This document shows positions 42,746 through 51,227 of a DNA stretch of 54,380 nt, in pieces. The notes beneath the pieces were generated by a model. That model was not told the origin of the DNA. It saw nothing but the letters and a program-made list of their open reading frames with translations, and ran no database searches. The stretch spans positions 1-54,380 of the forward strand of contig CANSQL010000013.1 in NCBI GenBank assembly GCA_947649125.1, given 5' to 3'. Numbering within the stretch: the stretch's first letter is position 1; each line of letters begins with the position of its first letter. This DNA is from an uncultured Erysipelotrichaceae bacterium. GTDB taxonomy: Bacteria; Bacillota_I; Bacilli_A; Erysipelotrichales; Erysipelotrichaceae. The position numbers and the translations under genes were made by a program.

Positions 42746-42769
42746 ATCATAGATTAGGTTAATCTACGA
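42746..42769. repeat. Left inverted repeat of the invertible segment (24 bp)
   Basis: The core TAGATTAGGTTAATCTA is itself a dyad of two 7-bp arms around GGT. The full 24 bp is repeated exactly, in reverse orientation, at 43866-43889. This is the form of a tyrosine recombinase crossover site. Confidence 0.9.
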
Positions 42770-42890: not shown

Positions 42891-42941
42891 TTGCTTTTCC
42901 TCTTTCCATGATGTCTAATATAGAAATATATAGGAAAGAGG
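42891..42941 (+). promoter_or_regulatory. Recombinase promoter with a 9-bp inverted repeat
   Basis: TTGCTT (42891-42896), 17 bp and TCTAAT (42914-42919) form a plausible promoter. CCTCTTTCC (42899-42907) and GGAAAGAGG (42933-42941) are perfect complements lying in the spacer and at the ribosome site, a likely operator or, for a longer transcript, a ribosome-site hairpin. Confidence 0.5.
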
Positions 42942-42949
42942 TATTAAGT

Positions 42950-43876
42950 ATGGAACAAATCACTTTTAATGAGCTGACTTATGAATGGCTGAGCTGCAGA
43001 AGGCTGTATATCAAGCGCTCAACCTTTGTCAAATATGAAGCGGTTATCACAAAGCACATATTTCCTTATTTCAGTGCAATACCGCCGAAAGAAATCAAAA
43101 GTCAAACGCTTATGTCATTTTTTGAATTGAAAATACAGCAAGAGCTTTCCTACAGTCTGTTGTGCTCAATCAAAAATATTCTTGTTTCTATTCTTGAATA
43201 CGGGATAGAAAATTATTCATTAAGGCAAATGAATTTTAAACAAATTCGCTTTGCTTCAAAAGTACAGGCAAAAGCGATACTATCCGGAAGCGAGCGAAAT
43301 AAGATTATACAGTATACAAGAAAAAACCGTAACTCCTTGTCACTTGCCATGCTTTTGGCCTTATACGGTGGACTTCGCTTAGGGGAAATTTGCGCTTTGA
43401 AATGGGACGATGTTGATTTTGATAATCAAGTGATCAAGGTTATGGGAACTGCTGTAAGACTGAAGTGCTTTGATACAAAGGATAAGAAAACGGAATTGGT
43501 TATTTTACCGCCGAAATCACAGGCTTCCTATCGCGAAGTGCCTTTATCAAGCTTTTTATCCGGTTATTTAAAGAGATGCTTTAATAAAAAGGGAAGATAT
43601 TTACTCTCAAACAGCGAAAAAATATATGAGCCGCGACGTTTGGAAAGACAATTCAAGACGTTTTGTATCGGTAATGATATTAACTGTACTTTTCACGGCT
43701 TAAGACACAGCTTCGCTACTGCTTGTGTCAGAAGCAATGTGGAAATAAAGGCATTAAGTGAAATATTGGGTCATTCTAATGTTTCGATCACCTTGAATGT
43801 TTATGTTCATACATCATTGGAACAGAAAAAAAGAGAAATAGAGAAGCTTATGACACCTGATATTATCGTAGATTAA
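42950..43876 (+). CDS. Tyrosine site-specific recombinase of the invertible switch
   Basis: I take the ATG at 42950 behind GGAAAGAGG; the longer frame lacks a site. The 308 residues have a SAM-like N-terminal core-binding domain (1-110) and a catalytic domain with ALYGGLRLGEICALKWDDV (Arg), the TCTFHGLRHSFATACV box (HxxR), LGHSNVSITLNVYVHTS (His and the Tyr nucleophile). All key residues are visible. The last four codons and stop lie in the right inverted repeat, so gene and sites form one 1.1 kb unit. It should invert the segment and thus switch the polysaccharide operon. It could also act on other sites elsewhere in the genome. Confidence 0.92.
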   Translation: MEQITFNELTYEWLSCRRLYIKRSTFVKYEAVITKHIFPYFSAIPPKEIKSQTLMSFFELKIQQELSYSLLCSIKNILVSILEYGIENYSLRQMNFKQIRFASKVQAKAILSGSERNKIIQYTRKNRNSLSLAMLLALYGGLRLGEICALKWDDVDFDNQVIKVMGTAVRLKCFDTKDKKTELVILPPKSQASYREVPLSSFLSGYLKRCFNKKGRYLLSNSEKIYEPRRLERQFKTFCIGNDINCTFHGLRHSFATACVRSNVEIKALSEILGHSNVSITLNVYVHTSLEQKKREIEKLMTPDIIVD

Positions 43877-43889
43877 CCTAATCTATGAT
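43866..43889. repeat. Right inverted repeat of the invertible segment (24 bp)
   Basis: This is the exact reverse complement of 42746-42769. It covers the end of the recombinase gene and lies 15 bp before the -35 box of the mntP promoter. Confidence 0.9.
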
Positions 43890-46700: not shown

Positions 46701-48125
46701 TTAATTGCGACTTACATAGCGTTGTTTGGGACTCTTTGGCTTATCAGGTATTGTCAGCATCAGCTTTCCGCTCTCCACAAGCGGCATTACAATTTTTGCC
46801 ATCGTATAGTTTTTTGATTTACCGACAAACGCTATAATTTCTTCTCTTGAACGTGCTGTAGAACAAAAATCGATAAGAGACTCTTCCGGCATCATTTCCT
46901 CAAACATGCCGTTTTTCATCGTAACCTTAAATTCGCCGTGCTTTACTGAGAACTGCGGAGCGGGAAGTCCGGCATTCGCAAGCTCTGTTCTCATTGTCGG
47001 TATACCGGAATATCGATTTTCTGTTACATTCAGAAGTTCAAGCATATTCGCCAATACCGCATTTCTTGTTTCAGGTCGCACCTTGCCGAGCGCATCAATC
47101 GAAATTTTTCCGTATAAACCGCCGCAGTTGACAATTTCAATCCGATCACGATACATTTCGATACGAATGGGAATATTCTCTGTATGAATACTGTAATCAC
47201 GATGGACTAACGCATTTAAAATTGCTTCACGCACTGCCTTGATCGGATATTCCGCCTTATCTGCTCTACGGCCGTAATCATCAATAATTGTTTTTGTCCG
47301 GCTGTTTTTGCGCACAAATTCAACTGCTTCCTCAAGCATATCGGGGATAGCACCGGTTATACGCTTATTATCAATAAAACGCTCTCCGTCTGACCCGACA
47401 CTGCCATGTTCAGTTCCCGGCAAACAAACTGCCGTTATACATAGCTGCGGAAAATATGCCTGCGGATATTTTGAAAACGTCATAAGGCCTGCAAGTGTCG
47501 GCAGTGAATCTACCGTTATTCCCATCAGCTCCAACAGCTCCGCTTCTGAAACATTTTCGGCAAGATTCTTGCGCTCTCGCACCACTGCACTGAGATATTC
47601 AGACATTCTTTTTTCATCGATTAAGCTCAGCTTAGCGTTTTCTACTGTTCGTACATCATCACGTATTCTTTTTCTGAATGCCTCATAGCTATATATCTCA
47701 TACTCGCTCATAAGCTCATCGGCTTCACCGACGCGAACATATGAACCCTTTATACGACCGACTCCTTTATAGAAAACAGGACGATCAGAAATATCAACAC
47801 CGGGTATTTCTGCGGATACTATCGTTTTACCGTCTATCTCACACATTGTAAACAGCGCACGAACTGACGGTTCCATCTGTTTACACTGTTCGCCTACCTT
47901 CTTTTGCAGATCCCAAGCATCATATACCCCCTTTATCGCATAATTATCAGCTTCATCGATACCGAATATAATAACGCCTCCTTCATCTTGATTGGAAAAA
48001 GAGGATAATGTATCAAACAGCCTTGTCGGGCACCCCTTTCCCGCTGCTTTCAGCTCAATTGTTTGTGATTCAGCCTTTTGTTTTTTAATATCTGATACAA
48101 GTTTCAATAAAGTTTCCGATTGCAT
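46701..48125 (-). CDS. AlbA_2/ATPase-domain putative transcriptional regulator
   Basis: The 474 residues have a Schlafen-type AlbA_2 domain (about 15-140: IELKAAGKGCPTRLFDTLSSFSNQDEGGVIIFGID). A GHKL-like ATPase module follows (about 270-365: AVREAILNALVHRDYSIHTENIPIRIEMYRDRIEIVNCGGLYG, HATPase_c_4 type). The C-terminal winged helix covers about 415-474. This is the layout of proteins annotated as ATP-binding transcriptional regulators. GGAGG precedes the ATG and a near-consensus promoter lies upstream. Seven phased 11-bp repeats overlap that promoter, so I infer autoregulation by this DNA-binding protein. What it regulates or senses is not known. Confidence 0.85.
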   Translation of the reverse strand: MQSETLLKLVSDIKKQKAESQTIELKAAGKGCPTRLFDTLSSFSNQDEGGVIIFGIDEADNYAIKGVYDAWDLQKKVGEQCKQMEPSVRALFTMCEIDGKTIVSAEIPGVDISDRPVFYKGVGRIKGSYVRVGEADELMSEYEIYSYEAFRKRIRDDVRTVENAKLSLIDEKRMSEYLSAVVRERKNLAENVSEAELLELMGITVDSLPTLAGLMTFSKYPQAYFPQLCITAVCLPGTEHGSVGSDGERFIDNKRITGAIPDMLEEAVEFVRKNSRTKTIIDDYGRRADKAEYPIKAVREAILNALVHRDYSIHTENIPIRIEMYRDRIEIVNCGGLYGKISIDALGKVRPETRNAVLANMLELLNVTENRYSGIPTMRTELANAGLPAPQFSVKHGEFKVTMKNGMFEEMMPEESLIDFCSTARSREEIIAFVGKSKNYTMAKIVMPLVESGKLMLTIPDKPKSPKQRYVSRN

Positions 48126-48174: not shown

Positions 48175-48203
48175 AGTATATACAAATTAACGATAGAGTT
48201 CAA
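48175..48203 (-). promoter_or_regulatory. Promoter of the AlbA/ATPase gene
   Basis: On the minus strand TTGAAC (48198-48203), 17 bp and TATACT (48175-48180). Repeat 1 lies in the spacer and repeat 2 abuts the -35 box. Confidence 0.75.
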
Positions 48204-48317
48204 GTTTGAACGCTATTTTTTAAGAATTAACGATAATAAACATAGAATTAACGATGATTTATATAAGTTGAACGATTTTTTGATAGAATTAATGCTTTTT
48301 CAATAAGAATCAACGAT
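48184..48317. repeat. Seven 11-bp direct repeats (GAATTAACGAT type) spaced 20-21 bp
   Basis: Copies begin at 48184, 48204, 48224, 48245, 48266, 48286 and 48307. The exact forms are AAATTAACGAT, GTTTGAACGCT, GAATTAACGAT (twice), AGTTGAACGAT, GAATTAATGCT and GAATCAACGAT. The period is two helical turns, so a protein would bind all on one face of the DNA. The sequence between copies is not conserved. Confidence 0.88.
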
Positions 48318-48414: not shown

Positions 48415-48460
48415 TTGACAATTCCCGATGATTGTTGTACTGTATTATCATAAATAGTAC
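48415..48460 (+). promoter_or_regulatory. Promoter and GntR-type operator of the ABC transporter operon
   Basis: TTGACA (48415-48420), 17 bp, TACTGT (48438-48443). The inverted repeat GTACTGTATTAT ... AAATAGTAC (48437-48460) covers the -10 box and start site. The operon encodes a YtrA-type GntR repressor, the likely binder. Confidence 0.75.
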
Positions 48461-48476
48461 AGTTGGAGGGATTGTC

Positions 48477-50852: not shown

Positions 50853-51227
50853 ATGTTTATCTTAAAACCGCAAAGTCGATTGCCGATCTTTGAACAATTA
50901 AAAGCACAGATTTTAGAATTTATTTCACTGGGAATCTTGGCACCGAATGATAAGCTGCCGTCGGTACGCTCCTTAGCCAATGAGCTTGCGATCAATCCCA
51001 ATACGGTAGCCAAGGCCTATCAGGAATTAGAGCTGCAGGGCTATGTATATACGATGCCCGGCAAAGGCTGCTTCGTCAATGACAATCATTTAGACGATCA
51101 AATCAAGCAGTTAAAGCTGAAGGAATTTGAACAGGCAGTAACGGAAATGAAGCGCCATCAAATCAAGCAGGAGGCTCTGACTGAGGTAATCACTCAGATA
51201 TATAAGGGAGATGATAACGATGATTGA
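50853..51227 (+). CDS. GntR-family repressor, YtrA subfamily
   Basis: The 124 residues fit the short YtrA branch that has only a winged helix-turn-helix and a small dimerising helix. SRLPIFEQLKAQILEFISLGILAPNDKLPSVRSLANELAINPNTVAKAYQELELQGYVYTMPGKGCFV is the full GntR DNA-binding domain. The gene sits between the two transporter pairs. The dyad at 48437-48460 is its probable operator. A GGGGTG site precedes the ATG. Confidence 0.92.
   Translation: MFILKPQSRLPIFEQLKAQILEFISLGILAPNDKLPSVRSLANELAINPNTVAKAYQELELQGYVYTMPGKGCFVNDNHLDDQIKQLKLKEFEQAVTEMKRHQIKQEALTEVITQIYKGDDNDD

Follow-up and report, generated by a model that had tools for sequence, protein, structure and literature searches.

The locus analysed here raises the question of which protein reads a series of regularly spaced direct repeats, and what this reading does to the gene whose promoter they cover. 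The window, i.e. the whole stretch of 54,380 nucleotides from an uncultured Erysipelotrichaceae bacterium, carries on its minus strand an uncharacterised gene of this gut bacterium (46701–48125, stop codon at 46701–46703) that encodes a 474-aa protein. Its near-consensus promoter, TTGAAC-17-TATACT, comprises a −35 element at 48198–48203 and a −10 element at 48175–48180 (both on the minus strand, separated by a 17-bp spacer) and is covered by seven AATTAACGAT-like repeats in one orientation. The repeats start at 48185, 48205, 48225, 48246, 48267, 48287 and 48308 (window coordinates, plus strand), with steps of 20, 20, 21, 21, 20 and 21 bp (mean 20.5 bp). Copy 1 (48185–48194, AATTAACGAT) lies in the promoter spacer and copy 2 (48205–48214, TTTGAACGCT) begins 2 bp past the −35 element, followed upstream by copies 3 (48225–48234, AATTAACGAT), 4 (48246–48255, AATTAACGAT), 5 (48267–48276, GTTGAACGAT), 6 (48287–48296, AATTAATGCT) and 7 (48308–48317, AATCAACGAT). 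Three copies match AATTAACGAT exactly, one has one mismatch and one has two; the two GAACG copies are 3–4 bases off the common word. All seven are recovered by a word matrix built from sites of this motif class, those of the window included. Seen from the minus-strand gene, they are ATCGTTAATT-like words located at −192, −171, −151, −130, −109, −89 and −69 relative to the start codon.

A blind phased-array score, counting words that recur at 19–22 or 40–42 bp, reaches 12 for this region, a value equalled by none of 1000 dinucleotide shuffles (maximum 9) and the highest among 1083 sliding windows of 250 bp across the 54 kb. The second-best score (11, windows starting at 101–251) overlaps a tandem-repetitive coding region. 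The sequence-only reading, which had described seven regularly spaced direct repeats at 48184–48317, one in the spacer, one at the −35 element and five upstream, is therefore borne out both in its count and in its geometry.

Homologues were found (E-value of 1e-30 or better) in 26 of the family's 272 genomes, a count that includes the own genome, and 65 loci were taken from the genome collection. Starting from 88 loci with an early match, 79 were retained (start at residue ≤10, identity ≥44%), 78 of which had 150 bp of upstream sequence; removal of near-copies left 66 non-redundant upstream regions, and 40 of them entered the distance test described below. Within the 66 regions, near-identical pairs of 9-mers accumulate at distances of 20 bp (215 versus 6.0 ± 3.7 in shuffled sequences) and 21 bp (416 versus 7.1 ± 4.0), with further peaks at 41–42, 62, 83 and 104 bp. 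An array that beats all 20 of its own shuffles was detected blindly in 47 of the 66 homologue promoters (46 in a rerun; 56 of 78 with near-copies kept), compared to 8 of 150 control promoters from other genes of the same loci, and a blind score of at least 9 was reached by 40/66 homologue promoters compared to 1/150 controls. A lack of conservation upstream of homologues, which would have refuted the initial interpretation, was thus not observed. The blind test was failed by 19–20 of the 66 promoters; a scan with the word matrix of seven failures belonging to motif class A (six of them among the 66) found at least two copies in six and a single copy in the last one (L045). When one- and three-turn steps were also allowed, arrays were found in seven members of a fresh set of nine unused homologues, the blind test giving none for the other two (L119 and L120), and in none of six relatives or paralogues sharing 24–34% identity. 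Arrays are conserved upstream of homologues down to about 44% identity. Upstream of a distant paralogue of the own genome (L004, contig C3), two ATCGGTTCA words lie 22 bp apart with an inverted copy nearby; this pair does not rise above shuffles in the blind test.

The refined arrays contain 2 to 11 copies. Steps of 20 or 21 bp make up 128 of 167, most of the remaining ones corresponding to one, three or four turns, and the helical-spacing analysis gives 133 two-turn steps out of 164, with a mean of 10.31 bp per turn (sd 0.13) over 44 arrays. The conserved feature is the spacing and the register, while the word itself changes between subfamilies: words found across homologues include ATCGTTAATT, AGTTATCAAA, TTGCCAAACT, GTGTGCAAACTT, GTTGCTCTAA, TCCGGAT, AATATCGATATT and TTTGCTAAA. 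When 16 word labels given by hand are placed on a tree of the protein core (residues 1–400, 54 rows), 16 changes are required, 15 being the minimum; the words thus keep mostly to clades, although the label TTRTCAAA by itself requires five changes and CGTTAATT two. Motif classes were defined by regular expression, and one locus (L081), which fell in class A and was left out there by the identity filter, was relabelled by hand for this tree. Upstream of position 3001 in L081 and L082, GTTGCTCTAA returns at intervals of roughly 10 bp in addition to those of 21 bp, so that the same protein family also shows one-turn packing. A TCCGGA-word array has steps of 11, 20 and 31 bp in L026 and of about 20 bp in L027, and both of these loci encode a recognition helix that opens with the unusual residues WD.

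The 474-aa protein consists of an SLFN_AlbA_2 domain (residues 19–139, 47709–48071 on the minus strand; 48.9 bits for a Pfam cut-off of 25.3), a GHKL-type HATPase_c_4 domain (residues 319–403, 46917–47171, minus strand; 80.3 bits for a cut-off of 26) and a C-terminal winged helix known from structure prediction (residues 414–474, 46704–46886, minus strand). AlphaFold modelling of the full protein (32 sequences) gave a mean pLDDT of 79, with C-terminal helices at residues 414–420, 427–434 and 438–451 and strands at 455–457 and 469–472; residues 405–474 folded alone (AF2, 31 sequences) reached a pLDDT of 88.6. The PDB matches of this C-terminal model are mostly winged-helix domains, with probabilities near 1 but E-values of at least 0.02, and a Fic-like_C match at residues 444–470 is weak and below the cut-off. 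According to these models, the C-terminus folds as a winged helix, whose predicted recognition helix is formed by residues 438–451 (46773–46814, minus strand). In the N-terminal domain, E19, E24 and K26 are invariant in 32 aligned homologues, whereas a third acid near 57–58 is not; E19 and E24 may correspond to acidic catalytic residues of animal Schlafens. The closest named record, from an Erysipelotrichales bacterium, is 99% identical. The solved structures nearest to the whole protein by fold and sequence are DIP2311 (PDB 3lmm) and 2kyy, whose entry titles give neither a tested function nor an operator.

Comparison of protein and word distances over the 40 loci indicates which part of the protein goes with the word. 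The best correlation was obtained with residues 427–449 (0.389) and persisted after partialling out the core (0.377, with p = 0.001, the lowest value that 999 permutations allow); conversely, once the winged helix was partialled out, neither the core (−0.137) nor the AlbA_2 domain (−0.121) tracked the word. When windows of 11 residues were scanned, the fifteen best had their centres at residues 430–444, and the best one centred before residue 412 reached 0.15. Taken one by one, columns 438, 439, 430, 434 and 441 perform best, with columns 169, 407 and 413, which lie outside the helix, coming next; co-variation peaks at residues 438–441, where the recognition helix begins. Loci with N at residue 439 (n = 25) carry CGTTAA-type words twice or more in 17 cases and GTGCAAA in four, those with T (n = 15) carry TTRTCAA in 14 cases and those with Y (n = 10) carry TTGS-type words in nine; words are mixed with F (n = 4), and none of these four types is present with A or S (n = 3). 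As these patterns were picked after the motifs had been seen and the tree offers only one or two independent pairs for the main contrast, too few for a sign test, the link between residue 439 and the word is a strong association and not a proof, and the co-variation inferred from these alignments is not phylogeny-proof. It ties the protein to the array, since the word co-varies with the protein's own recognition helix. The proposal that the AlbA/ATPase regulator reads its own promoter is thus supported by the homologue arrays and by this co-variation, and is refined as to the part that does the reading: in the absence of binding data, the reader appears most likely to be the C-terminal winged helix and not the AlbA_2 domain.

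Because the words in the equally spaced arrays of related genes track the DNA-reading part of their own proteins, the array of the window is very probably the place through which the protein controls its own gene. From comparative sequence evidence and without binding data, we consider it likely that the array serves its own gene as a dedicated auto-operator, to which the encoded protein binds with its winged helix, most likely for cooperative self-repression. The winged helix of the 46701–48125 product would read each asymmetric 10–11 bp word. As the words share one orientation and lie two turns apart, successive protomers would be aligned along a single face of the helix; their binding would be cooperative and extend from far upstream as far as the promoter spacer, both binding and cooperativity being inferred. 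The strong promoter would be shut off until the protein releases DNA, possibly when the GHKL/AlbA core senses ATP or a ligand, a role for ATP that is deduced from the GHKL domain alone. In the window, the spacer copy would seal the promoter.

That repression rather than activation takes place is also an inference, and the main rival is that the protein activates its own promoter through the array (positive feedback), the copy adjacent to the −35 element contacting RNA polymerase. Activators too sit abutting the −35 element from upstream, and in most homologues the nearest copy does so on that side; of the 38 loci whose promoter is good, 26 have this copy starting 10–16 bp upstream of the −35 hexamer. 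In addition, the register of the arrays to the −35 element is conserved in these 38 loci (locus-level R 0.61, p about 7e-7), the 14-bp site frame used for this calculation differing by a few bp among loci. However, activator-dependent promoters are typically not near consensus, and those of the homologues are (median score 15.2 versus 8.8 in controls, a comparison confounded by AT contents of 0.73 versus 0.57). Furthermore, copy 1 of the window lies within the spacer, where bound protein should block the polymerase. Among 208 sites in 44 arrays, 158 are upstream, 25 straddle the −35 boundary, 21 are in the spacer and four are downstream, and in 34 of the 44 arrays a site falls between the −35 boundary and the −10 element. 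Activation seems unlikely to us without being dismissed.

Other explanations concern the reader itself. Binding of the array by a different protein, for instance a global regulator or the product of the neighbouring ORF 50853–51227 (about 2.5 kb away), which we take to be a GntR-like gene, is not excluded by any binding data. It is nonetheless very improbable, since the word tracks the recognition helix of the encoded protein and the arrays accompany homologues in unrelated neighbourhoods, where the gene is solitary and the largest shared flank cluster includes 10 of 79 loci. The AT-richness of the upstream regions (0.73) and the helical phasing of the repeats would also fit intrinsically curved DNA without any sequence-specific reader; this is hardly credible given that the words hold conserved GC-bearing cores (TCCGGAT, GTTGCTCTAA, GTGTGCAAACTT), vary by subfamily in step with recognition-helix residues and are not reproduced by dinucleotide shuffles. 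Lastly, plasmid iterons typically consist of phased direct repeats to which winged-helix proteins bind, but a function as iteron or centromere in the replication or partition of an element is scarcely tenable for a solitary gene with no Rep or Par family among the commonest 25 of the 97 Pfam families found in 84 flanking ORFs.

Self-repression through the array, which remains our preferred reading, also raises the question of other targets. A degenerate two-site pattern gave three further hits in the own genome (C5:32906, C20:20900 and C20:27399) and none with the reversed control; C20:27399 (L110) was rejected as a second operator since it falls within a coding gene. A stricter three-site pattern retrieved the window array alone in this 98.7% complete genome, and the search for other arrays of the motif that the sequence-only reading had proposed thus found no second one. 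The 84 flanking ORFs, from 43 of the 66 loci, match Type III methyltransferase models (n = 3), PDC-S01 (n = 3) and AbiEi (n = 2), without a control for comparison, and no BREX protein is among the 25 commonest hits of the homologues' neighbours. With neither a second array nor a regular neighbour, the protein appears to act mainly on its own gene; this suggests an additional role as an effector, with a nuclease activity that is at most putative. As to a viral origin, no relative was found in viral_contigs, and the phage collection contains one short unannotated metagenomic record that is 76% identical and two that are 53–55% identical. Two genomes of the same genus lack the gene and match the window up to about 46595 on one side, presumably the nagA-like side, and from about 48412 or 48436 on the other (ABC); their flanks are far apart or on separate contigs, so that no empty site could be shown.

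Several features near the gene lie outside the array. Within 48416–48460, a promoter-like TTGACA belongs to the divergent ABC-transporter gene itself, and an imperfect palindrome around 48439–48462 is, we assume, perhaps a GntR-type operator. Further away, perfect 24-nt inverted repeats (42746–42769 and 43866–43889) flank a tyrosine recombinase ORF (42908–43876) that adjoins a polysaccharide locus and two ORFs, presumably NusG-like; this is a probable phase-variable invertible segment with its own recombinase.

Autoregulation or regulation through direct repeats is already known. The available passages on BldC of Streptomyces (PMC5859096) describe a winged-helix regulator that forms a cooperative head-to-tail filament on variable numbers of asymmetric direct repeats; this 68-residue MerR-like protein leaves about one turn between protomers, unlike the 474-aa AlbA/GHKL protein with mostly two turns, and the diversification of the word between subfamilies is a further feature that sets the present arrays apart from what these passages report. 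A one-turn filament of a small MerR-like protein of the BldC type was rejected here, as the protein family is another one and two-turn steps predominate. RptR (PMC12255303), encoded in a defence island and linked to defence genes, likewise uses several direct repeats to repress its own promoter; it is, however, a small dimer without GHKL or Schlafen domains, and its three repeats of 9 bp contain the conserved 6-bp palindrome TAGCTA. RdfS (PMC11963761) is also a winged-helix protein that oligomerises on DNA but, as far as the excerpts tell, it is a recombination directionality factor with no consensus motif. Fusions of a Schlafen RNase, a minimal histidine kinase and a wHTH near BREX, suggested to be defence effectors (PMC12839542), have the same domain order as the protein studied here, and the passages at hand describe no operator for them. 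In agreement with the initial statement that no operator of this form was known for the family, none was found in the openly licensed literature, which does not prove its absence; the same holds for the two-turn array, for this family as its reader and for the co-diversifying word. The operator predictor Snowprint, as presented in part of its publication (PMC10858194), seeks inverted repeats, and direct-repeat operators like these could therefore be overlooked.

A broader possibility, which we put forward tentatively and with more doubt than conviction, is that one protein is both a GHKL-gated effector (a Schlafen-type nuclease) and its own repressor polymerising on the promoter array, that array and helix co-diversify and thereby insulate copies from each other, and that one residue largely sets the word. 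Proteins of the SLFN_AlbA_2-HATPase_c_4-wHTH type are widespread; their annotations go no further than putative DNA-binding, RNA-binding or RecG-like, and roles in defence have been suggested for them. For this family, the arrays provide a probable binding site and point to the domain that reads it. They also offer a readable relation between residue and word, which could be tested by one substitution at residue 439 (N, T or Y) against CGTTAATT, TTATCAAA and TTGCCAAA arrays.
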